IMG/VR virus record: IMGVR_UViG_3300046804_004556
Coordinates: 1 to 56,823 of that record
DNA from: a virus
Length of the DNA stretch: 56,823 nucleotides
Reading direction: 5' to 3' (one strand)
The number at the start of each line of letters is the position of its first letter. Position 1 is the first letter of the stretch. Positions 30,634 through 54,558 of this stretch are shown piece after piece. Under the pieces are notes generated by a model that was given only the letters and a program-made list of their open reading frames with translations, was not told where the DNA came from and made no database searches. The position numbers and the translations under genes were made by a program.

Positions 30634-31335
30634 CTATTTGATAATGTCTATGAAATCGTCTGCGTCATCATGCGATTCATTTTGTGGCTGTTTTTTATCT
30701 ATCACATCGCCTTTATCGTCTAATCCTAAGCTTTCTAAGTGTTGCATGTAAAAATCGTCGAGCTGATAAAAGCTCTGTATCTCTTGATGAGTTTCGTCAG
30801 TGTGTGAAGTGAACGATTCAATATCACGAACCATTCTATTTGAGAAGTAGTCGAGACCGAGAAGAAATGAGCAGTTGTAGCATACCCATCTCAAATTGTC
30901 TAATCTCCAATCGGATCTAATACCATTCTTAAACGATATCATTAAAGGCATCTTCATGTCAGTTAGGCGTCTTTCAGAGAAACTACACACATCGCAGCAA
31001 TAACCTAACCTGCCATCTTTCATTAGCAGACCCTTGAGCACTGCAATTCTTCTGGGACTATTGTGTTGGTTTTCGGTTAGCATTTTGTCGAGATCACCTT
31101 TCAATTCTCCAGTGTTCCACTTTTTAGGTATGCCTCGTGAAGGTATGTTCGTGTGTAATTCCCATAGGGTTTTACCAGTAAGAACGTCGATATATCTTTT
31201 CGCGTACTTCTTATAAGTCTCTATGTCCATGTTGAGATGTCTTGCAGCTTCAGCGTTGCTACGAGTGGCAGCCATAGCTTGTCTTACATCTTCCTCTGTT
31301 AAATTGTAACCGTAATACCTAAATTCTTTTGGCAT
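30634..31335 (-). CDS. HNH-like zinc protein with a degenerate catalytic motif
   Basis: 233 residues. The N-terminus (YGYNLTEEDVRQAMAATRSN, AEAARHLNMDIETYKKYAKR) is a helix-turn-helix-like homeodomain-type unit. The middle has GRLGYCCDVCSFSE and 'RLDNLRWVCYNCSFL', the two CxxC knuckles and Leu-Asn-Leu frame of phage HNH proteins. The usual HHIDG block is replaced by ISFKNG, so the nuclease is probably inactive, leaving DNA binding or a structural role. The C-terminus is acidic and disordered (SHDDADDFIDIIK). Confidence 0.75.
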   Translation of the reverse strand: MPKEFRYYGYNLTEEDVRQAMAATRSNAEAARHLNMDIETYKKYAKRYIDVLTGKTLWELHTNIPSRGIPKKWNTGELKGDLDKMLTENQHNSPRRIAVLKGLLMKDGRLGYCCDVCSFSERRLTDMKMPLMISFKNGIRSDWRLDNLRWVCYNCSFLLGLDYFSNRMVRDIESFTSHTDETHQEIQSFYQLDDFYMQHLESLGLDDKGDVIDKKQPQNESHDDADDFIDIIK

Positions 31336-31336
31336 A

Positions 31337-31738
31337 TCATATTTTTGGATTTAACTTGGAAACCAAGTCCCATAATTGATGTATGTCTTTTAATTCTATT
31401 TCGTTATCGTCTTCATCAAAGACTGGGTTTATAGTTCCGTCTGGATTCACTCGATCCCATAGGTAGAAGGATATTAGTTCGGCTGCATCTTTACCAAATG
31501 CCATTATTAGCAGAGCATCTATTGCTGTATGATAAACTTCGTCATAACTTGAGTAATCAACTCCAAGATCTGTGAATGCTATGTTTGATCTAATTATTCC
31601 TGTCTCAATATTATTGATGGCAAGTGTGAAGAGCTCTTTCTTTTTATTTTGTTCGTTCTTTCTCTTTCTTCTTACCGATGATTTAATTTTTAACAAATCA
31701 TCTATTGCGGATTGAACGTTCTTGAAATCATTCGCCAT
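31337..31738 (-). CDS. Conserved hypothetical phage protein
   Basis: 133 residues, helical with a basic N-terminus (VRRKRKNEQNKKKELFTLA) and acidic C-terminus (FDEDDNEIELKDIHQLWDLV). 'YHTAIDALLIMAFGKDAAEL' and 'ISFYLWDRVNPDGTIN' are a block I recall from large marine phages. Role not known. Its stop lies two bases before the HNH-like start. Confidence 0.6.
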   Translation of the reverse strand: MANDFKNVQSAIDDLLKIKSSVRRKRKNEQNKKKELFTLAINNIETGIIRSNIAFTDLGVDYSSYDEVYHTAIDALLIMAFGKDAAELISFYLWDRVNPDGTINPVFDEDDNEIELKDIHQLWDLVSKLNPKI

Positions 31739-32427: not shown

Positions 32428-33705
32428 TTATTCGATAGATAATAAACTCATATCGAATTTAGGATTGTTAACTTTTGAAGAAGGGGTAATGTCGACAAAT
32501 TCTTTAATATATAATTTGCAATTTCCTGATTCATATTCACCGGGTTCTGCCATATTTTTTAGATGTCTAAGATTTAATAGTGTTTCTTGTCCCAAGAAAT
32601 TAAAAGCGGAGCTATCAACGTCTAATTCTATTTTAACATTATATTTTTCAGGTTCTCCTATTAAAAATATGTCTTCATAATTTATTTGATTATAGAATTT
32701 TTTAGAATTCTGCCAATCATCTTCACTGAATTTTAATAGTTGATTTGCTGGATCATTTATATTTTTTACCATGTCTAACAACTCTAATTTCATATCATCT
32801 GTTTCGATCCAAACTCTACTAAAAAAAGGCTCTGTTTGAAATGCTGCTTGTATTGATTTGTTTCGATCTCCTTTTATTACTAGATCTATATCGTATTTTT
32901 TAAGTTTCATTTCTCCATGAGAGAAATTTCCCCACTTTTTAACAAACTTTCTCAGTTCTATCTGATCAGCTATAGATTGCAATACAGTACGATCTTGTGC
33001 AAGTTTGTCTTGAGTATCAAACCAATTCTTACCTCTTGAAGAAACACAACTGAAATGGTATACGTTTGCTTTAAACGTTTGTTTTATTTTTATTCCACTA
33101 TTTATAAACCTCAGTAATAAATCTGAATCTTCTCTAGATCTTCTAAATAGAGTATCGTACCCTCCAACTTGAAGCCAAACTTTTTTATAAAATGTAAAAG
33201 GCGCAAAAAAGTATGATAATGTTTTATCTTCTTTTACTGTTTCAGAAAATACCATAAAATTTTCCCAATCGAATAAATTAGGATCAATACCAAAATCTCT
33301 AGTTATTGTTTTATCAGATTCTCCGTGGAGTGGTGGTTCTATTCTCGTAGCGCTTAATATACAATCATCTTCTAATTCAGATAACACATCTAAATCGTAA
33401 TTTTTGCTAATCACCATATCTGATTGCAAATAACTAACTATGTCGTGCTTTGCTAATTCTACTAATAAATTGTTATTTCTAGAATATCCTACACAGGGAT
33501 GTAACTTGTGTGTAATGATTTTTAAATCAGCAAAGTATTGTTTTTGATCTTTTAAATATTGTACTGTTCCTTCGTTATCTGAATCAACAAATATTAGTAT
33601 CTCGTGTTCCTTACCATATAAATTTTCTTTTAGAGATTTCAAAAGAAGTTTAACGTGATCAAGAGTGTTAACTGATGTGTTAATTATAAAACTTATATTT
33701 TTCAT
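32428..33705 (-). CDS. Glycosyltransferase family 2 protein
   Basis: 425 residues. N-terminal GT-A domain: SFIINTSVNTLDHVKLLLKS, 'EILIFVDSDNEGT' and 'YLQSDMVISKNYDLD', where the DSDN/QSDM acidic clusters are the usual nucleotide-sugar and metal sites; then 'FRRSREDSDLLLRFINSGIK' as in GT2. The C-terminal 170 residues (from about 250) have no clear match and may bind an acceptor. It is the last gene of the sugar island on this transcript and overlaps its neighbour by 4 bases. Confidence 0.8.
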   Translation of the reverse strand: MKNISFIINTSVNTLDHVKLLLKSLKENLYGKEHEILIFVDSDNEGTVQYLKDQKQYFADLKIITHKLHPCVGYSRNNNLLVELAKHDIVSYLQSDMVISKNYDLDVLSELEDDCILSATRIEPPLHGESDKTITRDFGIDPNLFDWENFMVFSETVKEDKTLSYFFAPFTFYKKVWLQVGGYDTLFRRSREDSDLLLRFINSGIKIKQTFKANVYHFSCVSSRGKNWFDTQDKLAQDRTVLQSIADQIELRKFVKKWGNFSHGEMKLKKYDIDLVIKGDRNKSIQAAFQTEPFFSRVWIETDDMKLELLDMVKNINDPANQLLKFSEDDWQNSKKFYNQINYEDIFLIGEPEKYNVKIELDVDSSAFNFLGQETLLNLRHLKNMAEPGEYESGNCKLYIKEFVDITPSSKVNNPKFDMSLLSIE

Positions 33706-34472
33706 TTTAATTTATTATGTACTTCTTTAATACCGTATTCTATTCCTAACCATTCGATATTAGGTGACCAAATATTAGTGCCGTAGTAGTGATCTCCCAT
33801 TGAATCTTTTTGTATGATTACTTCAACTTTATATTCATCCAAACAGTTTATCATATTAGCGACCCTTTCTAATGTGTAAATAAAAGGATAGCAGCATTCT
33901 ATTTCTTTTTGAGGATTTTTATCTACTATATAGTATTCTACTAATTTAATTAGATCTTTCATATAAAAAAAACTCATGTATTTATCTTGATGTATTTCTA
34001 TAGGTTTTCTTTGTATGTAATTTTTTATATTAGCTTTTATAAATCTAGTATCTAATTCATTTTCATCGAACACCGAATATATTCTTAAATTATAAAAACC
34101 TTCTTGATTGTTTATTGATTTCGCTATTATTGATTTACTGCATCCGTATGGAGTATCTACCATTGTTTTTTCGGCGCCTGATCCAAAGTGTATTAATCTA
34201 TCAAAATGATTTTTATTTTGCAATAAATTATAATACATTTGTAGATTATCGTCCATAACAGATGTTTCGTCTGTTTTTAATCTACTACCACCTCTTACCG
34301 CACAATGTATAACAACATCAAATAATCGATGTCTAAAAAAATTATTTGTAGCTTCTGAATTTGTGAGATCAAAATCTTTTCTACTTATAATCATCACCGA
34401 ATGCTTAGCTTTCAAAGCTTGATATAGACTTTTAGCTATGTATCCATTTCCACCTGTTATTAATATATTCAC
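33702..34472 (-). CDS. NAD(P)-dependent sugar epimerase/reductase (extended SDR)
   Basis: 256 residues with MNILITGGNGYIAKS (Rossmann GxxGxxx) and YGCSKSIIAKS (Tyr-x3-Lys), typical of sugar-nucleotide SDR enzymes. The substrate-binding C-terminal part is short. It directly follows the ThDP/dehydrogenase/aldolase genes. By analogy to YerF in yersiniose synthesis it could reduce a branched keto group, but it could also be an epimerase. ATGA overlaps on both sides. Confidence 0.8.
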   Translation of the reverse strand: MNILITGGNGYIAKSLYQALKAKHSVMIISRKDFDLTNSEATNNFFRHRLFDVVIHCAVRGGSRLKTDETSVMDDNLQMYYNLLQNKNHFDRLIHFGSGAEKTMVDTPYGCSKSIIAKSINNQEGFYNLRIYSVFDENELDTRFIKANIKNYIQRKPIEIHQDKYMSFFYMKDLIKLVEYYIVDKNPQKEIECCYPFIYTLERVANMINCLDEYKVEVIIQKDSMGDHYYGTNIWSPNIEWLGIEYGIKEVHNKLK

Positions 34473-35467
34473 TTTTTTAATTTTTGTGCTATTTCTAATA
34501 TTAGATCTTCTTGTCCAGCAACTAATTTTCTATTTCCTAATTCAAATATCAATGATGAATATTCGATACCATATAATTTTGAAGCTTTTATTATTGGTTT
34601 TTCAAATCCTGAGAAAAGCCTATGCAGTCCTGTTAGTATATTTACTGGGGTGGATATAGGAGCTGATGGTATTAAATAGTCCATAACCTTATCTGCTTCT
34701 ATTATCACCTTCTGAAAATCTATTCCTAATTCGTATCCGCTCTTTTCTAATACGGGTATCAGCATTTCTAAATGGGCATTTCCTGCGCCTGCTCCAAACC
34801 CTCTAATACATGCATCTATGTATTTAGCACCGTAATTTACAGCTGTCAATGAATTTGCTATTGCCAACCCAAGATTATCATGAGCGTGAAAACCTATATC
34901 GATCGTCAAACTATCTTTTAATGCAGACACTCTTTCATAAACATCTTTTGGAAGATAAGTTCCTGTGGAATCCATAATTACTACAGCTTCTGCACCATAA
35001 TCTTGCATATATTTTGCATTCTCAACAAGAGTTTTTACGTCTGCTAGTGCTGACATCATTAATACACCTATGACTGTCTTTCCTTTATTTTTTAAATATT
35101 CTATATGGGATTTAGATAATGTTCCTTCTGTACAATGCGTAGCAACTCTAAACACATCTACGCCTATATCTATTGCTCTGTTTACATCTTTTTGTATCGT
35201 CGCCAATCCAGGTATTATATGAATACCTAATTTAGATTTATTTAGATTTTCTTTAGCAACTGACAACATATCTGTATCAGAATGTGGAGATAGACCTATA
35301 AGTAAAGAAGACGCGCCTATTCCATTGCCATGTCCAACTTCAACAATTGGTATGCCAGCACTTTCTGCAAATTGACAGTATCTTTTAATCTGATCTAAAT
35401 TTAATGTGTGTTTCACTGCATGATTACCGTCTCTTAGAGAAGAATCTGTTATTACAATATTATTCAT
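34469..35467 (-). CDS. mhpE: 4-hydroxy-2-oxovalerate aldolase (MhpE/DmpG-like)
   Basis: 332 residues of a DRE-TIM metallolyase: TDSSLRDGNHAVKHT (Arg12, Asp13), 'GHGNGIGASSLL', 'MDSTGTYLP' and the FHAHDNLGLAIAN metal motif near residues 192-202. In catabolism these enzymes split 4-hydroxy-2-oxovalerate to pyruvate and acetaldehyde together with an acylating acetaldehyde dehydrogenase, which here is the next gene upstream. Length is normal (about 345). In a sugar island the reverse, aldol-forming direction is more plausible, making a 2-oxo acid for the ThDP enzyme; this is inference. Confidence 0.88.
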   Translation of the reverse strand: MNNIVITDSSLRDGNHAVKHTLNLDQIKRYCQFAESAGIPIVEVGHGNGIGASSLLIGLSPHSDTDMLSVAKENLNKSKLGIHIIPGLATIQKDVNRAIDIGVDVFRVATHCTEGTLSKSHIEYLKNKGKTVIGVLMMSALADVKTLVENAKYMQDYGAEAVVIMDSTGTYLPKDVYERVSALKDSLTIDIGFHAHDNLGLAIANSLTAVNYGAKYIDACIRGFGAGAGNAHLEMLIPVLEKSGYELGIDFQKVIIEADKVMDYLIPSAPISTPVNILTGLHRLFSGFEKPIIKASKLYGIEYSSLIFELGNRKLVAGQEDLILEIAQKLKK

Positions 35468-36315
35468 GATATTAATTTTTTAGTTATTTCAATAGCAGCG
35501 CAATTAATAATATCAAGATTGCCTGCATATTCTGGTAAATAATCTCCCGTACCTTTTACTTTTATACTCAATACCAATACATCATCATTTATGACTGGAG
35601 GTAAAACTAATTCGTAATAAGGTATATAATTTTTTAATTCTTTAATTTTTCTGTATATGTCTTCTACTAATGGACCGAAGTCAATACTTTTAAACTTTAA
35701 GAACATTGTAGTTTGCATGTCTACACATGGTTCCGCTGGATTAAGATTGAGTATCACTTTGCAATTTTCACATTTTGTGAATTTTCTTATAGCCATTTCT
35801 GTTGTATGAACATAACTATCGATGTTTATCCTTGTAGCCATTCCTGCGCTCTTAGATGCGATTTGAGAAACTACCTCAATATATTCTAAACTATCGCAAT
35901 ATTTTGATATAAGATTTAACATGGGCATTGATGCTTGTCCTCCGCATGTAATCATATTCACATTATCGTTTTCAACAATCATTTCTGGATTTATGCTTGG
36001 TACACATAGTGGACCAACTTTTGCGGGAGTAAGATCAATTACTTTTATTCCTTGTTCTTTAAAAATAATTGCATGCTGCTTTGCGTCTTCTGCACTAGTA
36101 CAATCATATACTACATCACAGCATTTTGGATTGTCTAAGAAATATTTTATGCCTTGATCTGTTACGTTGACTCCTTTGGATTGAGCGATTCTAATTCCAT
36201 CTGAATCTAATCTTCTACCTGCAAAAATAACAGGCTTTATAAAATCTGTTTTTAGAATCTTAAGTAATAGATCTGTTCCAATATTACCAGTTCCTATAAT
36301 TCCTGCTTTTATCAT
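35464..36315 (-). CDS. mhpF: Acylating acetaldehyde dehydrogenase (MhpF/DmpF-like)
   Basis: 283 residues. KAGIIGTGNIGTDLL is the NAD site, and MITCGGQASMP carries the catalytic Cys124, matching the family's 'MVTCGGQAT'. It interconverts acetyl-CoA and acetaldehyde and channels acetaldehyde to its aldolase partner, the next gene. It is about 30 residues shorter than bacterial versions. It overlaps both neighbours by 4 bases, so the partner pair is kept as one unit. Confidence 0.88.
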   Translation of the reverse strand: MIKAGIIGTGNIGTDLLLKILKTDFIKPVIFAGRRLDSDGIRIAQSKGVNVTDQGIKYFLDNPKCCDVVYDCTSAEDAKQHAIIFKEQGIKVIDLTPAKVGPLCVPSINPEMIVENDNVNMITCGGQASMPMLNLISKYCDSLEYIEVVSQIASKSAGMATRINIDSYVHTTEMAIRKFTKCENCKVILNLNPAEPCVDMQTTMFLKFKSIDFGPLVEDIYRKIKELKNYIPYYELVLPPVINDDVLVLSIKVKGTGDYLPEYAGNLDIINCAAIEITKKLIS

Positions 36316-38087
36316 CTTTTTATTTTTTTAGATTTGTGACTTATTCCTATAATCATATTATTTTCAACTTCATCTAATGAAAGTAGTGGCGACATTTCCT
36401 CTATTGGAGGAGATAGTATAGAAAAGTCTTCGTTTAATACTCCTTTAACTTTTGGAATGAAATCTTGTTCAGGATCCATAAAAACTTCTAAGCAAGCTGC
36501 TCCTTCGCAATTAATAAAATCCAACATTGTTTCTTCAAAACTTTCCCAATTGTTTAAAGAATAATATTCATATCCAAAAGCCGTCATTAATTTGTTGTAG
36601 TTCGGTAAACCTATTCCAGTTTTTTTATCTACGCTTACATAATGTTTATCAAATAACATTTTTTGTGTATGCTTAATCATCAAATAACCATCATTATTAA
36701 AAATGATTATTTTTATCGGTAAATTATTTTCTATAACAGTATGACACTCTTGTAAATTCATCATCATTCCTCCATCGCAATTTAAACACAAGACAGGTTT
36801 CGTTGGACAAGCTAATTGAGCGCCGATTGCTCCAGCTATTCCATAGCCCATTTCCCCCAATCCTAGAGAAGTAAACATTATTTGATCTTTTTTCAAACGT
36901 ATCGCTTGATGACCACTTAATAATGCTGTTCCCATATCTGTAACAATGATATGGTCATCTTTTAAGTATTCTGACATCTTATCAATAAACTTATAAGAAT
37001 TTATATATCCGTTATCTACGTGTTCATCATTTACTATAGGAAACTTTATTTTTGTATTATCACAATATTTTATCCAATCTTTTTTATAAGAATTGATTTC
37101 AACCTTATTTAGTGATTGAATAATTTTTTTGCAGTCTTGTTTTATGTAATGAACAGGATATTTTTGACCTTCATTTTCGTCTATGTCTACCACAATAATT
37201 TTTGCATCTCTTGCAAATTGGCTGAAGTCATAACCTACTTGAGGAAGAGCTAGTCTACTTCCTAATACTACAACTAAGTCAGCATTCTGAACTATGAAGT
37301 TAGCACATCTTTGTCCATATATGCCAAATCTTCCATAGAAATTTGGATTATCTGACTCTAATAAATCTATTCCTGACCATGTTAATAATGTTGGTATTTT
37401 CAATGTCTTAACAAGCTGATTAAATTCTTTTTTTGAATTAGATAATCTAACTCCATTGCCACCTAGTATTACTGGTCTTTGAGAATTATTTATCATTTCC
37501 ACTATATAAGTAACATCAACATCATTATTGAACTTATGATCAGGATTTCTCCAAACTCTTTTAGTTACGAGTTTCGATTGTAAATTAAATGGCACATCTA
37601 ACCAACAAGGTCCTGGTCTATCACTAACAGATTTTTCAAATATGTGTTCTAAGACATCTTGAATATTCATATCATCATCAAATGCTATGGACTCTTTAGT
37701 AACGTCTTCTAACATTTTTGTTATATTTAAGCCTTGAGTACCGTACATACGTAATCTACTATGATCTTTAACATAATTGATTGATTCTTGCCCAGAGATT
37801 ATAATTCCCGGTATTGAATCTGCCCAATTACTAACTACTCCAGTAACAGCATTGGTTGCGCCTCCTCCAGCTGTAACAATTGCGGCTGATAATTTTCCTG
37901 ATGCTCTGTAATATGCACCCATCGCCATCACAGCGGCTTGTTCATGATGAGTGTTTATTATTTTCGTGTATCCTAATTTATCTATAGAATCAAATATGTG
38001 TGAATTAGCTGATCCTATGATACCAAATACAGTATCGATCTCTTTCTCTTTTAAAAACTCCGCTATTAAATCACTAACTTTTACCAT
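36312..38087 (-). CDS. ThDP-dependent enzyme, acetolactate-synthase/YerE-like
   Basis: 591 residues with three domains in the order of acetolactate synthase: the N-terminal pyrimidine-binding domain with catalytic Glu49 in HHEQAAVMAMGAYYRASG, a central Rossmann-type domain (PVILGGNGVRL), and the C-terminal diphosphate domain with NCDGGMMMNLQE and IIFNNDGYLMIKHTQ. The classical GDG is CDG here. Relatives of this size decarboxylate a 2-oxo acid and transfer the acyl anion; YerE does so to a 4-keto-sugar. Placed between a 4,6-dehydratase and the aldolase pair, it is likely to act on a keto-sugar. Its start overlaps the upstream stop by 7 bases. Confidence 0.85.
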   Translation of the reverse strand: MVKVSDLIAEFLKEKEIDTVFGIIGSANSHIFDSIDKLGYTKIINTHHEQAAVMAMGAYYRASGKLSAAIVTAGGGATNAVTGVVSNWADSIPGIIISGQESINYVKDHSRLRMYGTQGLNITKMLEDVTKESIAFDDDMNIQDVLEHIFEKSVSDRPGPCWLDVPFNLQSKLVTKRVWRNPDHKFNNDVDVTYIVEMINNSQRPVILGGNGVRLSNSKKEFNQLVKTLKIPTLLTWSGIDLLESDNPNFYGRFGIYGQRCANFIVQNADLVVVLGSRLALPQVGYDFSQFARDAKIIVVDIDENEGQKYPVHYIKQDCKKIIQSLNKVEINSYKKDWIKYCDNTKIKFPIVNDEHVDNGYINSYKFIDKMSEYLKDDHIIVTDMGTALLSGHQAIRLKKDQIMFTSLGLGEMGYGIAGAIGAQLACPTKPVLCLNCDGGMMMNLQECHTVIENNLPIKIIIFNNDGYLMIKHTQKMLFDKHYVSVDKKTGIGLPNYNKLMTAFGYEYYSLNNWESFEETMLDFINCEGAACLEVFMDPEQDFIPKVKGVLNEDFSILSPPIEEMSPLLSLDEVENNMIIGISHKSKKIKR

Positions 38088-39076
38088 ATAAACTTATCTT
38101 TGTAATAATCTACAATATTTTGTATTTCTTCATTAAAAGAAATCTGTGGTGACCAACCTAATGCTCTTAATTTAGAATCATCTAATGCGTATCTTACGTC
38201 TTGTCCTGGACGATTACATGAAAAATCAATATAATCATCTTTATGTTTAAAATCTTCCCAATTTTCTACACCGATATATTTTGATATTACACTTTTAACA
38301 GTGTCAATATTTTGTTGCTCGAATCCTCCAGCTATATTATATATTTCTCCTATTTGTCCCTTTTCTATAAGTGTAATAACAGCTCTTGCAGTATCTGATG
38401 CGTGTAACCAATTTCTATACGGTTCTCCATTATTGTGAATTGGAATTTTTCTACCTAAATTTAAACACTTGACTGCTTTTGGTATTAATTTCTCTACATA
38501 CTGACCAATTCCGTAATTGTTAGTTGGTCTTATTATCATGTAAGGAACGTTATGTGTTCTTCCCCAAGCCATTATAAGCATATCTGCTGCTGCTTTTGTT
38601 GCTGAATAAGGATTGCTTGGTTTTAGTATATCTAATTCTGTATGTGCTCCTGATTCTATATCCCCGTATACTTCATCAGTGCTTAAATGTATGAGTACTG
38701 GTTTTGATGAATTTTCGCCTCTATGATTTTTTATTAGTTCAAGTATATTATGAACTCCATCAATGTTTGATCTAACAAATTCGAAGCTACTAGCAATACT
38801 ATTTCCTACGTGAGTCTCTGCGGCTGTATTGATGATATAATCGCAATCATACAAAAATTTTAGATCATTTATATCGCAATGAACAAATGAAAAATTTGGG
38901 TGTTTTTCAAACCTGTTTAAAAGACTCTTATTGGCTGCATAAGTCATTTTATCTACGCCTTTTACATACCAACCTTTTTCTAAACACTGTGTTGTTATAT
39001 AAGATCCTATGAATCCTAAACAACCAGTTACATACACTATTTTTTTACCATCATTTTTTTTATGTATCTCTCCCAT
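38081..39076 (-). CDS. dTDP-glucose 4,6-dehydratase-like (RmlB family)
   Basis: 331 residues. VYVTGCLGFIGSY binds NAD, VDKMTYAANKS is the RmlB family signature, LSTDEVYGD has the catalytic Asp134-Glu135 pair, and PYSATKAA holds Tyr157 and Lys161. It should form a 4-keto-6-deoxyhexose, the usual start of deoxysugar synthesis. The nucleotide (dTDP or CDP) is not fixed by eye, though the sequence is RmlB-like. The start at 39076 overlaps the previous gene by 40 bases; a start further in is possible. Confidence 0.88.
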   Translation of the reverse strand: MGEIHKKNDGKKIVYVTGCLGFIGSYITTQCLEKGWYVKGVDKMTYAANKSLLNRFEKHPNFSFVHCDINDLKFLYDCDYIINTAAETHVGNSIASSFEFVRSNIDGVHNILELIKNHRGENSSKPVLIHLSTDEVYGDIESGAHTELDILKPSNPYSATKAAADMLIMAWGRTHNVPYMIIRPTNNYGIGQYVEKLIPKAVKCLNLGRKIPIHNNGEPYRNWLHASDTARAVITLIEKGQIGEIYNIAGGFEQQNIDTVKSVISKYIGVENWEDFKHKDDYIDFSCNRPGQDVRYALDDSKLRALGWSPQISFNEEIQNIVDYYKDKFIW

Positions 39077-39849
39077 AATATGTCTTCTATTATATTGTAT
39101 TTTAAAGTTCTATTAAAATTATCGATAATTGCCTCTTCTTTAGACAAATATAATTCAGGTGTTAATAAATTTGGATCGAAAGAATCATCGAGTTTTATTA
39201 TTCCATCTATATTAAAATAATCTCCTATATTTGGATCTCCATGATAAATCGGTATAGTTCCACAAGCAAAACAATCAAGTATTTTTTCGCTCCAATATCC
39301 ATCATAAGATGCATTTTCCATTGTGACAGAGAACATGTAATCCGCTAATGCGTCTTCTTTTTTATTAAATTCTCTAATTCCTCTACCGAATAAATCAACT
39401 TTATCTTTTAATTTATCAGCCCAATGTAACCTATATAAGTGACCCTCGCATTGAGTTTTATTTGAAGTTATCATCGAACACAATCTTGTTTTAGGGTAGC
39501 ACTCAGGATTTTCTATCCAATATCCAGATGGAGGAAGATAATAGAAATTATCAGCTAAACAAGATATAGATTTGTCGTGAGTTATTAAAAACTCATATGC
39601 ATTTGATATTTCTTTACTTTGTTCTTTTATCTTCTTTATTACTTCTGGGATTATTGCGGATGATTCTACTATCCATGCTATTTTCTTCGTGTTATATGTA
39701 GAATTTATATTTTTTACTATATCTTCATCTACAAAAAAAGTTATGTCTTTTATTTGATTTTTAGACCATGTAAAATATGTTGGAATTTTCCAAAGTGTAG
39801 ACGAATACGCGTGTTGAAATCCTCCTCCTATTAATCCTACTTCTATCAT
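39037..39849 (-). CDS. GT10-like (alpha-1,3/4-fucosyltransferase type) glycosyltransferase
   Basis: About 270 residues from ATG at 39849, which overlaps the upstream stop as ATGA. The signature block 'FSVTMENASYDGYWSEKILD' then 'CFACGTIPIYHGDPNIGDYF' matches the GT10 motif (F-x-x-x-x-E-N-x-x-x-x-G-Y-x-T-E-K-I, then G-x-I-P-I-Y-x-G). GT10 enzymes move fucose from GDP-fucose, often in Lewis-type structures. The N-terminal half is divergent. Here Trp-Ser replaces the usual Val/Tyr-Thr before Glu-Lys. The donor is assumed from the family and from the gmd/fcl genes nearby. Confidence 0.8.
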   Translation of the reverse strand: MIEVGLIGGGFQHAYSSTLWKIPTYFTWSKNQIKDITFFVDEDIVKNINSTYNTKKIAWIVESSAIIPEVIKKIKEQSKEISNAYEFLITHDKSISCLADNFYYLPPSGYWIENPECYPKTRLCSMITSNKTQCEGHLYRLHWADKLKDKVDLFGRGIREFNKKEDALADYMFSVTMENASYDGYWSEKILDCFACGTIPIYHGDPNIGDYFNIDGIIKLDDSFDPNLLTPELYLSKEEAIIDNFNRTLKYNIIEDILWERYIKKMMVKK

Positions 39850-42011
39850 ATAACAATCCAATTTTGTGGAATTAAATCTCGTGTATCATTATTTTTTAAA
39901 GCTTCTCCAAACCATTTTTTGGGAGCAATAACTTTTTTATTTTCATTCGTATTTAACCATGCTCCCCACCAACTAAAGCTACTGTTAGCTATTATATTAT
40001 GCTTACACATTGACATTATATATAGATCAATATAATCATTTTCTCCATCAATTATGTTATATTTCTTATCAGTGAAATTATTTCTAATAAAATCTTTATC
40101 ATCACCAAACACTAAAAAAGTCTCAGACTCTGGGAAATGGGATATAGCTTCTTTATAGTAATCTATATTGCATATGGGATGATGATCTTGACTTACCATG
40201 TAATCTCCTCTTCTTATATGAATACTTGTTGGATTATTTTGCAATACATGTCCATATTTTTTATTTATGTAATCTACTACTTCTTCATTCGGAGAAAATA
40301 AATCAATTATTTTTTTCTTATTATGTGCAAAATACTTTTCGCTTTGAAAATGGCCTTCTATATATAAATTTTTATCAAACTTATAGGATATGGGTTTGTA
40401 AGAAAAGCTCTGTTCTTTCCATACATCAAAGTTAGAAGGATTATCAATAAAATCTATTTTAGAGTATATGTTATTTTTATATAGCGTTGGGCTACCATTT
40501 TCACCTAATAAAGATGTATACACTCCATTAGCTTCGCTTATTTTAATATCGCATTTATTGTCTATCGCAAAAGAATATGCTGTAGCTATTTGAAACATTT
40601 GATTACCCAATCTGCCTAAAATTCTTGGGATAACATATTTGTCTGAGTTATCTTTTATGACTGAATATGGTCTTATGCTTTTTATGTAATTCTCTCCATC
40701 TCTTCCGTTTATATAATCTTGATGATTTCTATCAGAGTTTGGTTTAGATTCATTATATACATAAGTAACAAAATTCATTACACCTATTTTATTTTTAGGA
40801 GATTGTTCCATAGCGGCGCACATAATTGCAACATCATCTCCGAATCTGATCCATTCTCCATTGTGTTGTAGATCTATTTCTGATATATTCTTGAACAGAA
40901 ATCCTTTCATTGTTTTTAAATGACTCGCAGTATATGGATATTGTCGATATAGGTTAAATTTATGTATGTCTTCAGGGTGATCTTTACCGTGTGATGGAGA
41001 TTCTAATAAACTCGGGTAACATACCATTTTTGAATATGCAACCCATACACTATTTTCTATATAGTATTCTACAACTTTTTGAAATACATCATTATATGCT
41101 ATCCAATCATCTCCATCTATAAAAACGACTATATCATTATCATCTATAAAATCTTTTCTATACTCCATAAAAGAATAAGATTTGCTCTTATTTTCTTTAT
41201 GACAAATAAGTTTGAATTTTGAATTATTTGATATTAGATAGTCTGCTATTCTTGCTGTATCATCAGAAGAATTATCATCTATATATAAAACTTCGTAGTT
41301 TTTATATTTTTGATCTAGTATACTCTCTATATTAGTTTGAACCCAGTCTTCATTATTATATGTAGTAACAATAACTTTTATTTTTGGAGCTTTTACATAT
41401 AACGCATCTCCCCAATTTGCATGAGTCCATGCAGTTTCTATTCTAATAAATCCGTATTCTGATAGATAATCATCTATATTATCTACGATATCACATCCTT
41501 CATACAGCTCTTCTTTGTTTATTTCTGTATAAATGTAATCTATTTTTTCTAAATACTTTCCTAAACTTTTTATAGCTCTAAGTTCTATTCCTTGTAAATC
41601 TAAATTAATGAAATTGTACTTATCAATATCTAAGTTATTTTCGTTTATTATTGAATCTAATCGCTTGGTTATTACTTCTATTTTTTGTACAACGTCTATC
41701 TGAGGATAGAAATTTTTATGATTTTTTAGTTTTAATATAGACGAACTCTCTCCGTTATTAGTAATATTAAATTCTATTTTTTCTCCATCTATATCGTTTA
41801 TCGCATCATTAATAACGATACTTCCTACTTCATTTTCTAAATATTTTTTACAAAAATCGCTTTTTGCTGGATTGGCTTCTATCCATACGATGTCGCTTAT
41901 GTTCAATTTTTTATATAAAGAAAACTCTTCTGCTTCATGAGCTCCGCAGTGAATTATACCTTTTATGTTTAATTTATATTTCTGAATTAGGTGGTTAAGA
42001 TCTATTAACAT
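39846..42011 (-). CDS. Three-domain fusion: FkbM methyltransferase, GT2, GT11 fucosyltransferase
   Basis: 721 residues. Residues 1-210: FkbM-type methyltransferase (CGAHEAEEFSLYKKL, 'IEANPAKSDFCKKYL', 'NLDLQGIELRAIKSLGKYL', 'DYIYTEIN'). Residues about 211-440: GT2 (VIVTTYNNEDWVQTNIESIL, 'YIDDNSSDDT', 'VFIDGDDW'). Residues about 465-721: GT11 alpha-1,2-fucosyltransferase-like (GRLGNQMFQIATAYSFA, 'SIHIRRGDYM' near 600, 'ANSSFSWWGAWL' near 680). Each domain has its family's key sites, so all may be active. Such a single chain could transfer a sugar, add fucose and O-methylate. ATGA overlap downstream. Confidence 0.88.
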   Translation of the reverse strand: MLIDLNHLIQKYKLNIKGIIHCGAHEAEEFSLYKKLNISDIVWIEANPAKSDFCKKYLENEVGSIVINDAINDIDGEKIEFNITNNGESSSILKLKNHKNFYPQIDVVQKIEVITKRLDSIINENNLDIDKYNFINLDLQGIELRAIKSLGKYLEKIDYIYTEINKEELYEGCDIVDNIDDYLSEYGFIRIETAWTHANWGDALYVKAPKIKVIVTTYNNEDWVQTNIESILDQKYKNYEVLYIDDNSSDDTARIADYLISNNSKFKLICHKENKSKSYSFMEYRKDFIDDNDIVVFIDGDDWIAYNDVFQKVVEYYIENSVWVAYSKMVCYPSLLESPSHGKDHPEDIHKFNLYRQYPYTASHLKTMKGFLFKNISEIDLQHNGEWIRFGDDVAIMCAAMEQSPKNKIGVMNFVTYVYNESKPNSDRNHQDYINGRDGENYIKSIRPYSVIKDNSDKYVIPRILGRLGNQMFQIATAYSFAIDNKCDIKISEANGVYTSLLGENGSPTLYKNNIYSKIDFIDNPSNFDVWKEQSFSYKPISYKFDKNLYIEGHFQSEKYFAHNKKKIIDLFSPNEEVVDYINKKYGHVLQNNPTSIHIRRGDYMVSQDHHPICNIDYYKEAISHFPESETFLVFGDDKDFIRNNFTDKKYNIIDGENDYIDLYIMSMCKHNIIANSSFSWWGAWLNTNENKKVIAPKKWFGEALKNNDTRDLIPQNWIVI

Positions 42012-42860
42012 TTATGAATTATTTTTATAGAAATCTACTAATTTATGCACAATTTCATCAATATTATATTTGCAGTCGTATCCATAATTTTGAAGTTTTG
42101 TTGTATCTAAATATGAATTTTTTACTTGCACGATATTGTGAAAATGGGTTGGATCTATGTTTATTATTTTCGATTTCGATTTTGAATATTTTATTGCTTT
42201 TTTTACTATATTTAAAAATAGATAAGGTTTCCCGCTTCCTATGTTTATTATTTCATTAAGAGGAGCTTGATTTATGCAATGATATATGGCTTCGCAAACA
42301 TCATCAACATATATGTAGTCTCTTAAAACATTACCTCCATAATATAATTCTACGTCTTTATTTTCAACTATCTCTTTTATTAAGAATTGTAAAGCATTTT
42401 TTTTCTTTGATATTTTATAATCCCCTTCTCCTAATACATTCGCTAATCTGAATATTCTATACTTTATATCGAAGGTATTACAAAAACTAATTATTAGCTG
42501 TTCTGCACATCTTTTAGTTATAGAATAAAAACCTGTTGGATTACACTCAAGATCATCTTCTTTAAATGGTGTTTTATTATTCTGTCCATATACAAACCAT
42601 GAACTAACGAAGTTAAACACTGTATCTTTATTATGCTTAAAATTGTCTAACACATTCATTAGTACTTTTAAATTAGTATCTATATCAACGTGAAGATCAT
42701 TATGAATATTATAGTTATCTATGGTACTTATCAAATAGAGTATATTATTTGATTTTGGTGAATAATCACTTCTATCATTTATGATAACTTCTTGATCATA
42801 CATTTGACAAAATCTTTTGCCTATAAAACCAGTTCCTCCGAATATATTTAATTTTTCCAT
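42012..42860 (-). CDS. NAD-dependent sugar epimerase/dehydratase (extended SDR)
   Basis: 282 residues. LNIFGGTGFIGKRF is the Rossmann motif, 'VSSWFVYGQ' the central Ser region and 'YSITKRCAEQ' the Tyr-x3-Lys, with 'RDYIYVDDVCEA' and 'NIGSGKPY' later, as in GalE-type enzymes. The substrate is not clear. It could modify the branched or dideoxy sugar at C-3, C-4 or C-5. Its stop directly precedes the three-domain fusion. Confidence 0.82.
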   Translation of the reverse strand: MEKLNIFGGTGFIGKRFCQMYDQEVIINDRSDYSPKSNNILYLISTIDNYNIHNDLHVDIDTNLKVLMNVLDNFKHNKDTVFNFVSSWFVYGQNNKTPFKEDDLECNPTGFYSITKRCAEQLIISFCNTFDIKYRIFRLANVLGEGDYKISKKKNALQFLIKEIVENKDVELYYGGNVLRDYIYVDDVCEAIYHCINQAPLNEIINIGSGKPYLFLNIVKKAIKYSKSKSKIINIDPTHFHNIVQVKNSYLDTTKLQNYGYDCKYNIDEIVHKLVDFYKNNS

Positions 42861-42863
42861 ATT

Positions 42864-43508
42864 TTAAATTTCATTTAATAACGATATTTTATTTATCGAT
42901 TCGTTTGTTAATTTTCCATGGAATCCAAAAGTCTTTTCTAAATTATATTCGCACTCTGGAATATTATGCTCTAAGGAGAATTTTGAAGCTATCTCGATTG
43001 GTGCATATTTCATTCCATTTCTTACGAAAATATCATAGTAATAATTTGTGACTAATACATCATTATGCATGCCTTCAATATAATCTACTTTTTTCTCTAA
43101 ATCAAGAAATTTTTTGCTTTTTAAAACGAATCCTCCATTTCCAACTCTATTTTTCTTACACCAATCTAAATCTGGCCATGGCGCTCCTATATAATCGTAT
43201 TCATAAAATTCATTTATCCACATGTGCGGATTTATTATGAATCCATCATCTTGTATAGATAACATATAATCAGTTTCTACATAGTCTGATAAATTCTCCA
43301 TTGCGAATCTATTTATCGACGAGTGTGATTGCTTTTCTATTTCTATGAAATCTATATCTTGAGTTATATTATCTGGTCTTTCGTTGGATATCAGTATGAT
43401 TTTTCCAAATTGTATGTGCTTAGAACTGTATAGTAATGCTTTAACAGAATTAGATGGATTTACGCAATCTATTGCAAGTAACGTTATATTTTTTAAATTT
43501 ATTTTCAA
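42864..43508 (-). CDS. DUF5672-like putative glycosyltransferase
   Basis: 214 residues. 'YMLSIQDDGFIINPHMWINE' then 'FYEYDYIGAPWPD' and 'VGNGGFVLKSKKFLD' are the DUF5672 signature, a GT-A-like family found in phages and bacteria, with an Asp-Asp site. N-terminal LLAIDCVNPSNSVKALLYSS is typical. Donor unknown. ATGA overlap with the upstream oxygenase gene. Confidence 0.85.
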   Translation of the reverse strand: MKINLKNITLLAIDCVNPSNSVKALLYSSKHIQFGKIILISNERPDNITQDIDFIEIEKQSHSSINRFAMENLSDYVETDYMLSIQDDGFIINPHMWINEFYEYDYIGAPWPDLDWCKKNRVGNGGFVLKSKKFLDLEKKVDYIEGMHNDVLVTNYYYDIFVRNGMKYAPIEIASKFSLEHNIPECEYNLEKTFGFHGKLTNESINKISLLNEI

Positions 43509-44272
43509 TTTATGTATACTGATTTTGAAGTGTTATAATCTGATCTTTTCTTTATTAAATCTAGTACAGATTCATCGTTCTTTTGATCTTCTGTAGGAGC
43601 AAAGAGTGCTCGACTTCTTTTGTCCACATCTTTAGGAGGTTCGCATAAATAATAAATCGCCAAACTTTTTCTATACTTATTTTCTGGGCAATTCACTTGT
43701 CTACTTAGTCCGTGCCATGAATTTTGAGTGGTATCGAAAAGAACTGCTTTATTGAAACCTACAGAAATTTCTTTTTCTAAAACAGAAGAATCACTATTCC
43801 AAAGACCAAAATGTCCTCCATAAGAATCGTTCCAATCTTCACACAAATATATAATTAAATTTAACTTTCTTTGCAATTCTAAATGTGGGTGCATAGAATA
43901 ATCCAAATGAGGATTTAGTTTACCACCATTAGCGTGTATGTGCCAGCCTCCTCCATGAAGTCCATGATCTGGATATAATTTTGTTCCAAATATATTAGAT
44001 AATAACTCTAAGACTACTGGGGAATTTAAAAAACTAAATAGTTGGTAAGTGTTTGTTGGAAATTTTCTCCAATCACTTAACAATTTTTTATCTTCTATTT
44101 TATTTTTATAATTAAACCAAATATCATCGTTAAAATCGGGGAATTCGTTTGATAGACTCTTGGCAAAATCTTCACTTAAAAAATTATCTATAATAGCATG
44201 ATCGTACGGAGAAGTTTCTATTTGTAGATTAGCTAGAGATTTTATTATTTTATTTCCAATAAAATTATTCAT
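43505..44272 (-). CDS. 2-oxoglutarate/Fe(II)-dependent oxygenase
   Basis: 255 residues. The iron facial triad is His122 and Asp124 (NPHLDYSMHPHLELQRK) and His187 (QNSWHGL), with Arg201 (YRKSLAIYYL) for 2-oxoglutarate, in the order of prolyl-hydroxylase-like enzymes. 'GGGWHIHANGGK' precedes the HxD. Substrate could be a sugar, a methylated sugar, or a proline or lysine of a fibre; it sits inside the sugar island, so a sugar or acceptor is favoured. Overlaps its neighbour by 4 bases. Confidence 0.85.
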   Translation of the reverse strand: MNNFIGNKIIKSLANLQIETSPYDHAIIDNFLSEDFAKSLSNEFPDFNDDIWFNYKNKIEDKKLLSDWRKFPTNTYQLFSFLNSPVVLELLSNIFGTKLYPDHGLHGGGWHIHANGGKLNPHLDYSMHPHLELQRKLNLIIYLCEDWNDSYGGHFGLWNSDSSVLEKEISVGFNKAVLFDTTQNSWHGLSRQVNCPENKYRKSLAIYYLCEPPKDVDKRSRALFAPTEDQKNDESVLDLIKKRSDYNTSKSVYIN

Positions 44273-44282
44273 TATATCATTT

Positions 44283-45275
44283 TTATTTTTCGAAATACGG
44301 TTTACATAAATTATTTATATATGTCTCTTCTATTTCTTTCTGTCTCTCTGTACATCCATAAGCCATATGTATTCCACAACAGTTTCTAACATATGCAGGT
44401 TTTTTCTTTTGCGCTAAAGAGTATACATTCATCTGTCCTTCATCCCATCCATCTCTAAATGTAGATTGACTTTCTTTCCAAAAAGAGGTTTTTATAAAAG
44501 TTAAATTATTACAAAAATATACACTATTATGATCCATAATATGATATTCTCTCTTATCAAAAATTAAATTCTTATTTTCTATTAATTTTTGTGTTATGTA
44601 CGAATTGTATGTATAAGAGAATCTAGCTGGATGGAATCCTTTTGCTAACGACATATAATTTGGAAGATTTATATTTTCTATAGGATTAAACTTATCAATA
44701 AAATTCCAATATTCGTTGTAATCCCATTCAGATTTTGAATCTATATATTGTTGAACTTTTCTATAGTCGCAACCCCATATATGTAAATTGTTTTTTACAC
44801 CTTCTGATAGGAATATTTTATAAGCCTCTAACTTCTCTTCTTCACTTAAAAAATCTTCAATAAAAAAATCCACTGTAGGTATACCATTTTGAATTATCGG
44901 TATGAGTACGGATATATCTTCTTTATCTAGAACAGATACATTTTCTATCATATAGTCCCATACGTATGAATTAATAAATGTATCATCATCCCATTTACAC
45001 GAATATTCGCAATCTGATTCGTGCGCTAATTGTACTTTCTTAATATATTCATCATCAGTCATACACTGAATAGTGATATCTATATTTTGGTACTTTTTGT
45101 CTGTTAGCTCTTCTACCCATTTACTCTCATCTAATGCATTAATGTATACATGCAAAGATATTTTTTCTAAATTGTCTTTTTTTATTTTAGAGAATTGATC
45201 TAAACACATTCTAGTAAACCAAAATCTATCTTTGTAATGTGCACCGTTAGCCGTAAATAAGTTTATTTGTATCAT
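44283..45275 (-). CDS. Putative GT-A glycosyltransferase
   Basis: 330 residues. 'CEYSCKWDDDTFINSYVWDY' is a DxD-type metal and nucleotide-sugar site inside a GT-A-like N-terminus (MIQINLFTANGAHYKDRFWF). The C-terminal half is Trp/Tyr-rich with several Cys and His (RNCCGIHMAYGC). I recall relatives in large aquatic phages. Specificity unknown. Confidence 0.65.
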   Translation of the reverse strand: MIQINLFTANGAHYKDRFWFTRMCLDQFSKIKKDNLEKISLHVYINALDESKWVEELTDKKYQNIDITIQCMTDDEYIKKVQLAHESDCEYSCKWDDDTFINSYVWDYMIENVSVLDKEDISVLIPIIQNGIPTVDFFIEDFLSEEEKLEAYKIFLSEGVKNNLHIWGCDYRKVQQYIDSKSEWDYNEYWNFIDKFNPIENINLPNYMSLAKGFHPARFSYTYNSYITQKLIENKNLIFDKREYHIMDHNSVYFCNNLTFIKTSFWKESQSTFRDGWDEGQMNVYSLAQKKKPAYVRNCCGIHMAYGCTERQKEIEETYINNLCKPYFEK

Positions 45276-46063
45276 TGTGTATCTATTATTTTATATTCTA
45301 AATTAGGATTTAAGCATCTTATGAAGAAATTCACATTGGATCCTGTGCAACATAATAAAAAATTTGTTTTTGATAGCAGATATGCCTCTATTAAAACTTC
45401 TTCTCCGATAAAATATTTGTTATGAAAATATGCATTGTGATAATGTAGTGGACCTTCATTTATACTTCTAAATGTTGGATACAATATGACTTTATCTCCA
45501 AATATATTTTTTATATAATCAACTCGACTTTGTTCATCAGATGTTACGAATATTGCATCATAGTCTTTTAATTTTTCAGCAATTTCATTCACATACATGT
45601 GCATAGGTTTCTTATCCGGATGATCTGTTCCTCTGCAATGCAGACCTAACACTTTCTTATTAGAAAAATTTTCATTATAAAACGAATCTAATTTTTCTTG
45701 TACGTGAGGTAATAGCTTTACATGTTTTTCTACTATTTGTGCATATTCTAGTCTTCTCTTTTTATATATTTCTGGATCTAGAAACACATCTCTAAATTCA
45801 CTAAAATCATCATGCAACAATCCCACTTCAGATAATATCTGATCTTTATCTGGTATAGTATTAGTGTGAGGTTGTTCAAAATAATAATCCCAAACATTGT
45901 ATATCCCTTGTTGACCGTGAATGTCATAATCGTAATAACAACATTCTTCTCCAAATAATACGTAATACTTTTCATTTGGATAATGGTACATTCCTCTTAA
46001 AGTCTGCCAAATAAATGCAAACAGTCCTGAATTTGGTTGTGTTGGATGGAGTAGTCTATACAT
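45272..46063 (-). CDS. GT23/NodZ-like fucosyltransferase-type protein
   Basis: 263 residues. 'LGLHCRGTDHPDKKPM' matches the HxRxTD motif of NodZ/FUT8-type alpha-1,6-fucosyltransferases, followed by 'DAIFVTSDEQSRVDYIKNIF' and 'EAYLLSKTNFLLCCTGSNVN' (late motifs of the family). It is shorter than FUT8. The donor in this family is GDP-fucose. N-terminus is less conserved (GLFAFIWQTLRGMYHYP). It is the third fucosyltransferase-type protein of the island. Confidence 0.75.
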   Translation of the reverse strand: MYRLLHPTQPNSGLFAFIWQTLRGMYHYPNEKYYVLFGEECCYYDYDIHGQQGIYNVWDYYFEQPHTNTIPDKDQILSEVGLLHDDFSEFRDVFLDPEIYKKRRLEYAQIVEKHVKLLPHVQEKLDSFYNENFSNKKVLGLHCRGTDHPDKKPMHMYVNEIAEKLKDYDAIFVTSDEQSRVDYIKNIFGDKVILYPTFRSINEGPLHYHNAYFHNKYFIGEEVLIEAYLLSKTNFLLCCTGSNVNFFIRCLNPNLEYKIIDTQ

Positions 46064-46072
46064 ATAAACTTT

Positions 46073-47056
46073 TTAATTTAATACTTTATTCATATAGTTT
46101 AACCATATGTCTTTATGGTAATAAGATTTATATGAATCTTTAGCCATTTTACTACAATGCTCGTAAAAATCTTTATTTTCTTTTAAGTTCTTAGCTAAGT
46201 TTCTTGCAGAGTAAATATCTTCCACATCTACTGATAATAGTGGATGACATGCTGATTGCGTATCTACTTCTTTGTTTCCTATACACGGTATTCCAAAATA
46301 CGCGCAGTTTAGACTAAAAGTTCCTGCTGCAACCGTTGGCATTAAATGCACAGCGTATTTGAATTTAGATAATTCTTGCATCCATTGATTCCATAGCATT
46401 CTTGGAAAGTGATTTATATTTTCAAGTTGATCTTCGTATTGTCTTTTTGAGTGAGAATCTTGAGCCCAAATAGGCACACCGAATTCTTGAGCTACGGTAT
46501 AGCTTTCGAATCCTCCATACCATCTAGAGAAGTTACCACCAATGATCGCCAGATCTGTTTTAATAGGCTCTATATCTTTTATTAGAGTTTCTATCATAAG
46601 CGTTTGCATTACGTGAACAGGCTTATCAGGAAACATTCCTATATAATATCTTCTGTCTTGTTGATTATGCGCAAATATGCTATCGCATTCACTTATAAGA
46701 TTATAGAAGTTTATCTGATCTACTATCTCGTAATCATTAAATAACCAGTGAGGACCTTCTTGAACAAAGTGTACTTTTTTATTATTTATTTTAAGTACTC
46801 TTAAAAAATTAGAATATAATAAATTGCTTACTGGATTTATTTTATCAACGAGTTTTGATCCAATTGCATTTAGATAGACTTCTCCTTTTGGGAATATTAA
46901 AAAAACGTGGTCGTAATCTATAACATTTTCGTACGTAGAAATATGATAATGGTCAGCATTAAGTGCATTCATCCAAGCGAACTCCGTTCTCATATTTGGA
47001 TGATCCTCTTGAATCTTCCCTTGAAATGCCATTTCTGTTAAAAAAGCTATTCTCAT
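46073..47056 (-). CDS. GT-B glycosyltransferase
   Basis: 327 residues. Two Rossmann-like halves: MRIAFLTEMAFQGKIQEDHP at the start, and 'LAIIGGNFSRWYGGFESYTV' to 'CAYFGIPCIGNKEVDTQSAC' in the second half, typical of GT4-like enzymes (a 'GGNFSRW' strand and a glycine/proline loop near the donor). The ATG overlaps the stop of the RfbH-type gene by 4 bases. Donor and acceptor unknown. Confidence 0.75.
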   Translation of the reverse strand: MRIAFLTEMAFQGKIQEDHPNMRTEFAWMNALNADHYHISTYENVIDYDHVFLIFPKGEVYLNAIGSKLVDKINPVSNLLYSNFLRVLKINNKKVHFVQEGPHWLFNDYEIVDQINFYNLISECDSIFAHNQQDRRYYIGMFPDKPVHVMQTLMIETLIKDIEPIKTDLAIIGGNFSRWYGGFESYTVAQEFGVPIWAQDSHSKRQYEDQLENINHFPRMLWNQWMQELSKFKYAVHLMPTVAAGTFSLNCAYFGIPCIGNKEVDTQSACHPLLSVDVEDIYSARNLAKNLKENKDFYEHCSKMAKDSYKSYYHKDIWLNYMNKVLN

Positions 47057-48366
47057 AAATAAGATATAAACTTGTCTAGTATTGTTTCTATGTAATCTGT
47101 TTTTTCTTTGTTGATAACAGGACTGGTTCCCAAAAAGAATGTGTCTGTTGTAACTTTTCTTGCTATAGGATATTTCTCTATAACCTCTTTTGGATCCATT
47201 AGACCAGTATATGCTGGTTGTAACATTATATTTCCTGCAAAATATGGTCTTGTTTGTATTTTATTCGCTTCAAAGAATTGACAAATATCTGATCTTTTAA
47301 ATGGAGCATCATCTCTTAAAGTTACAGGAAAAGCAAACCAGTCTGGATCGGATAGTGGTTGCGCTTCATGTAAATGAAAATATTGTTCATATTTAGAGAA
47401 TGCTTTGAAGAGGTTTGTGTAATTCTCTCTTCTCTTTTGACCAATCTCTTCTAACTTCTTCATTTGTACTAATCCAATCGAAGCTTGTAATTCTATTGGT
47501 TTTAAATTGTAGCCTATTTCTTCGTAAACGTATTTGTGATCGAACAAGTCTTCTGGTAATGATGGAAGCCAATTACTAAATCTACAATCACAAGATCCAT
47601 TAGCTAGCAAATTCTGTTTTCCTACGCAATAACAACCTCTTCCCCACTCTCTAAAACTTCTTACAATTCTTTCTGTATCTAAATCTTTCATCGCAACAAA
47701 TCCCCCTTCTCCTATTGTCATGTGATGTGCTGGATAGAATGAGCAGCTAGCCATTTCGCCAAAAGATCCTAATTTTTTTCCGTCATATGTAGAACCCAAA
47801 GCATCACAACAATCTTCTAATAGAATTAAATTGTATTTCTCTATAATTTCCATCAATCTATTCATATTTGGAGGATTTCCCAATACGTGAGCGAAAGTAA
47901 TTATTTTTGCATCTGGGTTATCTATGCATGCTTGCTCAACTTGATCTAAATCTAAATTGAGGGTTTGTAATTCAATATCAACAAAAATTGGAGTAAAACC
48001 TACTTGAAGTATTGGATTAATTGTAGTTGGAAATCCTGCAATGGGTGTTATAACTTTAGTGCCTTTTGCAAAATTTCTACCTCTTTTAGAAGTCATGGCA
48101 AGCATCATTAAAAGATTTGCGCTTGATCCGCTATTAGCTAGTAATCCAAATCTCTTACCAAATTTTTCAGGAAAAGTCTTTTCAAATTTTATTGCGTCTG
48201 CTCCTAAAACTAGCCATTCTCCTAATAAACTTTTTACAGCCGCTATATACTCTTTAGAATCGAAATATGGTCCTGCGTATTGCACCCAATCTTTACCAGC
48301 TTCCCATTTTTTTTCTGAGTGTTTCTTTTCAATAAATTCTTCAACTAATTTTAAAATCTCTTGCAT
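47053..48366 (-). CDS. rfbH: RfbH/DdhC-type 4-keto-6-deoxyhexose 3-dehydrase
   Basis: 437 residues, the exact size range of E1/RfbH. It is a DegT/DnrJ-fold PLP enzyme in which the internal-aldimine Lys is replaced by His (SFYPAHHMTIGEGG, His214), the mark of the C3-deoxygenating branch that makes 3,6-dideoxysugars. Cys187, Cys245 and Cys247 keep the C-x57-C-x-C spacing of the E1 [2Fe-2S] site; the fourth ligand would be Cys259 or Cys261 after a short insertion. The reaction needs a reductase partner, not seen in the window. ColD-type GDP-substrates are possible, but the iron-sulphur cysteines favour the RfbH branch. Confidence 0.87.
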   Translation of the reverse strand: MQEILKLVEEFIEKKHSEKKWEAGKDWVQYAGPYFDSKEYIAAVKSLLGEWLVLGADAIKFEKTFPEKFGKRFGLLANSGSSANLLMMLAMTSKRGRNFAKGTKVITPIAGFPTTINPILQVGFTPIFVDIELQTLNLDLDQVEQACIDNPDAKIITFAHVLGNPPNMNRLMEIIEKYNLILLEDCCDALGSTYDGKKLGSFGEMASCSFYPAHHMTIGEGGFVAMKDLDTERIVRSFREWGRGCYCVGKQNLLANGSCDCRFSNWLPSLPEDLFDHKYVYEEIGYNLKPIELQASIGLVQMKKLEEIGQKRRENYTNLFKAFSKYEQYFHLHEAQPLSDPDWFAFPVTLRDDAPFKRSDICQFFEANKIQTRPYFAGNIMLQPAYTGLMDPKEVIEKYPIARKVTTDTFFLGTSPVINKEKTDYIETILDKFISYL

Positions 48367-50861: not shown

Positions 50862-50870
50862 TTGTAGTTT

Positions 50871-52829: not shown

Positions 52830-52830
52830 A

Positions 52831-54273: not shown

Positions 54274-54277
54274 TTGT

Positions 54278-54493: not shown

Positions 54494-54508
54494 TTTTATT
54501 ATTTATAA

Positions 54509-54518
54509 TAAATATACG
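54509..54518 (-). promoter_or_regulatory. Candidate promoter element CGTATATTTA
   Basis: Minus strand TTTACGTATATTTATTATAAAT in part, 15 bases ahead of the RHH gene at the head of the glycosylation island. Same 10 bases as at 8308 and 56315. Confidence 0.45.
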
Positions 54519-54558
54519 TAAATATAAATTATAAATACATAAATAAAAAAAAATATCT

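Follow-up and report, generated by a model that had tools for sequence, protein, structure and literature searches.

A viral gene block predicted to encode the synthesis of a long-branched deoxysugar

Related sugar-branching pathways have been described in bacteria. ErwE of Pectobacterium atrosepticum favors hydroxy-functionalised donors (e.g., 4-hydroxy-2-oxopentanoate), does not use pyruvate, and forms erwiniose with CDP-4-keto-3,6-dideoxyglucose (PMC12247030). JanthE, from Janthinobacterium sp. HH01, accepts 4-hydroxy-2-oxovalerate, with benzaldehyde, and also accepts pyruvate; its physiological substrates had not been identified as of that study (PMC12188165). The viral locus described here would share its reaction type and kind of acceptor with the YerE/yersiniose A system, but yersiniose A has a two-carbon branch, and YerE is limited to the donors pyruvate and 2-oxobutyrate (PMC12247030). 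In erwiniose formation, as proposed for the virus, a 4-hydroxy-2-oxo acid and a 4-keto-3,6-dideoxy sugar nucleotide give a four-carbon branch; that system, however, is bacterial and uses a CDP carrier with RfbF and RfbG, and ErwE is likened to the viral enzyme by its described reaction (PMC12247030).

The sequence studied is the whole of a 56,823-nt stretch of the viral record IMGVR_UViG_3300046804_004556 (positions 1 to 56,823), referred to below as the window. Five overlapping genes had been predicted at 33702-39076, and all five open reading frames were found there on the minus strand, with the families originally assigned to them. In order of transcription, they encode an RmlB-like nucleotide-sugar 4,6-dehydratase (38081..39076; TIGR01181 and GDP_Man_Dehyd/Epimerase), a ThDP-dependent carboligase of the JanthE/YerE-like class (36312..38087), an acylating acetaldehyde dehydrogenase (ACDH) of the DmpF/MhpF type (35464..36315), a 4-hydroxy-2-oxovalerate aldolase of the DmpG type (34469..35467), and an SDR-family reductase (33702..34472; Epimerase, PF01370) with an RmlD-like N-terminus and a YxxxK motif. 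The last gene of the overlapping block, on the same strand, encodes a GT2-family glycosyltransferase (32428..33705; PF00535), and the successive overlaps from the RmlB-like gene to GT2 are 7, 4, 4, 4, and 4 bases.

In our view, this block most likely enables the phage to make a long-branched deoxysugar of the erwiniose type. The ACDH, run backwards, would convert acetyl-CoA to acetaldehyde, which would pass through a DmpF-DmpG-type channel to the aldolase and be joined there to pyruvate, giving 4-hydroxy-2-oxovalerate. From a nucleotide sugar of the host, the RmlB-like enzyme and an RfbH-type enzyme (discussed later) would generate a 3,6-dideoxy-4-keto sugar nucleotide. On C4 of this acceptor, the JanthE-like enzyme would place the four-carbon acyl anion left by decarboxylation of 4-hydroxy-2-oxovalerate; reduction of the new side-chain ketone by the SDR would then leave a 1,3-dihydroxybutyl branch, and the neighboring transferases would put the resulting ten-carbon sugar into a glycan. 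The acetyl-CoA, aldol, ThDP, and SDR scheme of the original prediction is thus supported by conserved linkage, phylogeny, conserved residues, and the relatives JanthE and ErwE. Its view of the product as novel stands only in part: the proposed branch does have four carbons, and is longer than that of yersiniose, but the sugar type is not new, because erwiniose, made by ErwE in Pectobacterium, has such a branch (PMC12247030). The phage pathway therefore reads as a variant of a known bacterial kind, with a chemistry that its genes make probable.

The ThDP enzyme has the TPP N, M, and C domains in Pfam/NCBIfam profiles, and acetolactate synthase models name it, although every one listed falls below its cut-off. 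Compared with solved structures, it matches JanthE (8rph) at 548 bits, the best score by far, relative to 234 bits for acetolactate synthase I and 231 bits for 5ahk, which we take to be PpYerE. The catalytic residue E49 is conserved, the CDG motif is common to both enzymes, and the JanthE pocket residues E53, Y268, P293, Y297, H494, F564, and K567 are kept, while V121 is changed to Thr and S498 to Met. Its sequence closeness and its deoxysugar neighbors assign the enzyme to the JanthE subgroup of YerE-like carboligases, and on this basis it probably adds an acyl anion to the ketone of a 4-keto sugar. An acetolactate synthase reading of the enzyme was rejected in view of sequence, tree, residues, and context. 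JanthE itself differs from the phage enzyme in being bacterial, its close relatives having RfbFGH and a separate SDR. In one such bacterial locus, L121 of Duganella lactea, the ThDP protein is 92% identical to JanthE and is encoded beside ACDH and aldolase genes, so 4-hydroxy-2-oxovalerate is the likely physiological donor of JanthE.

The ThDP gene was found in 55 viral loci. Linkage was counted in loci where each flank of that gene extends for 3.5 kb or more (44 viral and 60 bacterial): ACDH and aldolase genes lie near it in 36/44 viral and 32/60 bacterial loci, HpcH/HpaI aldolases in three and 12, respectively, and an RmlB-like gene is found within 6 kb in 39 of the 44 viral loci. These counts bear on the idea that pyruvate is the donor and only its two-carbon unit is transferred by the ThDP enzyme, as in yersiniose formation, while the aldolase and ACDH serve something else. 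JanthE accepts pyruvate (PMC12188165), so the phage enzyme might also, and three viral loci (L014, L018, and L022) keep the ThDP and SDR genes without this aldolase, two of them (L018 and L022) without any aldolase. We nevertheless judge a two-carbon transfer improbable, given that the ACDH and aldolase genes adjoin the ThDP gene in most viral loci and that JanthE is a far nearer match to the enzyme than 5ahk is. Moreover, where the pair is missing, three viral contigs (L032, L038, and L039) carry HpcH/HpaI aldolases, a pyruvate aldolase family, in its place and retain the RmlB-like gene, which suggests an aldol product as the donor. The original prediction had also raised a restriction of the ThDP enzyme to pyruvate; its closest characterised relative, JanthE, takes 4-hydroxy-2-oxovalerate.

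The donor modules are paired with the ThDP motif: CDG occurs with DmpFG in 68/68 cases and GDG with HpcH in 14/15, a pairing that common descent may explain for the most part. L032, L038, and L039 encode a 4Fe-4S protein and HpcH/HpaI beside a GDG-type ThDP gene, and L032 has two tandem HpcH/HpaI-family proteins (11764-14375). At another locus, L015, a dehydrogenase-E1-like gene (11068-12243) adjoins the ThDP block.

The search for this gene order in bacterial O-antigen loci, proposed with the original prediction, was successful. The bacterial loci in which ACDH and aldolase genes accompany the ThDP gene are of O-antigen type and lie beside the CDP-3,6-dideoxyhexose pathway. In L109 (Pseudomonas viridiflava), for instance, the order is E3-like, RfbF, RfbG, RfbH, ThDP, SDR, ACDH, and aldolase, followed by transferases and a flippase, the names E3, RfbF, RfbG, and flippase having been read from the sequences themselves. 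Even sampling of 369 Gammaproteobacteria yielded six ThDP matches, of which three were JanthE-like, including one already known; both new ones have the aldolase and ACDH genes adjacent.

The aldolase scores 333 bits against TIGR03217 (cut-off 286) and has the DmpG communication domain, and the ACDH scores 315 bits against TIGR03215, the acetylating acetaldehyde dehydrogenase model (cut-off 282). Conserved in the aldolase are the catalytic residues R12, D13, and H16 and the metal His pair H194 and H196; the catalytic Cys of the ACDH, C124, is invariant. In their families, catalytic residues, and communication domain, the two enzymes resemble DmpFG, MhpEF, and BphIJ, and this likeness is what favors reading them as a catabolic module from an aromatic-degradation operon, one that converts 4-hydroxy-2-oxovalerate to pyruvate and acetyl-CoA. 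In a 91-row tree, however, the catabolic reference aldolases cluster apart on a long branch (support 100/100), and they differ from the sugar-locus aldolases at two positions. The reference for numbering is L182, a catabolic DmpG carried on a plasmid, with catalytic residues at 16, 17, 20, 199, and 201, in line with BphI; H83 and F285 of the window aldolase align with its Leu87 and Tyr290. At BphI positions 87 and 290, His and Phe are found in all 80 aldolases from sugar loci, whereas all seven catabolic references have Leu and Tyr. In addition, no FAA_hydrolase-type (2-oxopent-4-enoate) hydratase was matched in 20 viral records, and the context is one of sugar genes throughout. We therefore give a catabolic module very little credence; sequence, tree, residues, and context together argue against a degradative role for the window's own pair, and the catabolic surroundings that the original prediction had thought possible in relatives appear in no sugar-locus relative seen.

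One locus counts against our preferred explanation, that of sugar branching. On a Paraburkholderia symbiotic plasmid, L180 (11108-16321) has genes for an ACDH, an aldolase, an SDR, a carboxymuconolactone-decarboxylase-family protein, and a ThDP enzyme, so that the ACDH-aldolase pair accompanies a ThDP gene here in a setting other than a sugar locus. The L180 aldolase also has His and Phe at the two positions. The viral aldolases form one group in the tree, with the row of a marine Flavobacteriaceae MAG locus (L093:8688-13615) nested inside it, a placement suggesting that a phage and a bacterium have exchanged genes.

The residue pair also bears on stereochemistry. Erwiniose is 3,6,8-trideoxy-4-C-[(R)-1-hydroxyethyl]-D-gulo-octose; its C7 would be R, in agreement with a 4R donor. 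The BphI variants L87N/Y290F and L87W/Y290F cleave the 4R enantiomer instead of the 4S (PMC3962088; PMC4012138). As His is absent from the position-87 replacements reported for BphI (PMC3962088; PMC4012138), it is by analogy that we infer the product of the phage aldolase, which is probably the 4R form of 4-hydroxy-2-oxovalerate.

With respect to the acceptor, the RmlB-like enzyme scores 305 bits against the dTDP-glucose 4,6-dehydratase model TIGR01181, below the cut-off of 365 and far above any other nucleotide-sugar dehydratase model. Its product is probably a 4-keto-6-deoxy sugar nucleotide, and because the carrier is read from a model score below the cut-off, the dTDP linkage is a prediction. 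The CDP-glucose route (RfbF and RfbG) is absent from the phage block, which has the RmlB-like dehydratase in its place. The original prediction of a 4-keto deoxysugar acceptor is supported, but it overlooked an RfbH/E1-type 3-dehydratase (47053..48366, minus strand; NF011936, 463 bits, cut-off 423) 9 kb upstream of the block. This protein has His in place of the PLP Lys (SFYPAHH) and a Cys-rich Fe-S region, and it probably supplies the 3-deoxy function; its presence in the window makes a 3,6-dideoxy-4-keto sugar the probable acceptor. By gene content, then, the phage locus combines a route to a four-carbon acyl donor with a route to such an acceptor.

An RfbH-type or related match was present in all 20 viral records searched whole, 15 of them over the cut-off; control genomes also match, none over the cut-off, because the family is broad. 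The shorter RfbH relatives that were checked (the DegT_L014 group) likewise have His for Lys. No E3-type (FAD_binding_6) reductase to serve RfbH was matched in the 20 viral records, which are possibly fragments, and nucleotidyltransferase-domain matches occur in only four of them; both functions would therefore have to come from the host.

The block lies in a variable glycan island of about 32.4-50.9 kb, all of whose genes named here are on the minus strand. A GDP-mannose 4,6-dehydratase and a GDP-fucose-synthase-like protein (48372..50247; TIGR01472, 404 bits, and NF047922, 239 bits) and the fucosyltransferase-family genes GT10, GT11 (39037-42011), and NodZ-like (45272-46063) are predicted to constitute a separate GDP-L-fucose branch. 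The rest of the island (39037..46063) comprises GT10, an FkbM-GT2-GT11 fusion (a 721-aa protein at 39846-42011 with FkbM methyltransferase, GT2, and GT11 domains), an SDR, DUF5672, a 2OG-Fe(II) oxygenase (43505-44272), and the NodZ-like gene.

On either side of the island, the backbone gene order is that of Immutovirus-like phages. Collinearity of the window with the cultured Flavobacterium phage vB_FspM_immuto extends through a flank at 50244..55461 (minus strand: GT2, a 147-aa protein, two GT1, a 71-aa protein, and a PD-(D/E)XK nuclease), in which the nuclease, two glycosyltransferases, 147-aa protein, and GT2 correspond, and, past the island, through GT2, a 133-aa protein, and an HNH endonuclease (the latter two at 30634..31738, minus strand). 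Immuto has a homolog (32.5%) of the GT2 at 32428..33705 on the corresponding edge of its glycan slot. The slot of immuto itself, in contrast, holds a transaminase, a methyltransferase, and transferases, with no ThDP gene or aldolase.

This collinearity weighs against a further explanation, that the window holds an acetolactate synthase gene and unrelated host genes acquired at random, or comes from a bacterium and was wrongly filed as viral. The sub-threshold acetolactate synthase matches would fit such an origin, as would the lack of capsid and terminase matches in the window itself. Among 20 related viral contigs, though, a T4-type gp23 capsid (seven) and a terminase (six) occur on the same records as the block; even contigs that have diverged keep the block, and since it recurs in dozens of viral contigs it is not a chance assembly. 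We regard this explanation as highly unlikely. The capsid protein of one relative is 80.5% identical to that of immuto, and this identity and the shared gene order make a Flavobacterium-type host likely for these large phages. A cyanophage origin found no support: there is no psbA in the 20 viral records, and capsid and glycosyltransferase best match a Flavobacterium phage. No PF01943 flippase was found in these 20 records, which makes the virion or another cytoplasmic target for the glycan somewhat likelier than new LPS export.

The original prediction knew of no described phage with this gene set, and it was likewise absent from the 50,697 GenBank phage records that we searched; at the DNA level, too, the block had no match among GenBank phages. 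What is new is the occurrence of the pathway in phages, the aldolase residue signature, the swapping of donor modules, and the likely physiological donor of JanthE. Higher-branched-sugar biosynthesis is thereby extended to viruses, and the distinct aldolase clade offers a testable stereochemical prediction. The Immutovirus-like group, with its cultured relative on Flavobacterium sp. LMO8, provides a system for the roles of phage-made glycans, and the carboligases are of biocatalytic interest for tertiary alcohols. More tentatively, we postulate that (i) phage-made long-branched sugars may differ from erwiniose in being dTDP-linked with a 4R-derived branch, (ii) donor modules (DmpFG, HpcH/HpaI, or none) may be swapped within the variable island, diversifying a virion or host-surface glycan, and (iii) sugar-locus aldolases may have evolved naturally the stereochemical reversal engineered in BphI.

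A glycan cluster with RmlB, RfbH-like, and GT11 genes is also found in Synechococcus phage S-H68 (Kyanoviridae; L186), but no ThDP gene or 4-hydroxy-2-oxovalerate aldolase is annotated there; its annotations include a dTDP-glucose dehydratase, an RfbH-like protein, and a transaldolase. Elsewhere in the window, positions 1246-2025 give a weak PHROG match to cysteine dioxygenase.
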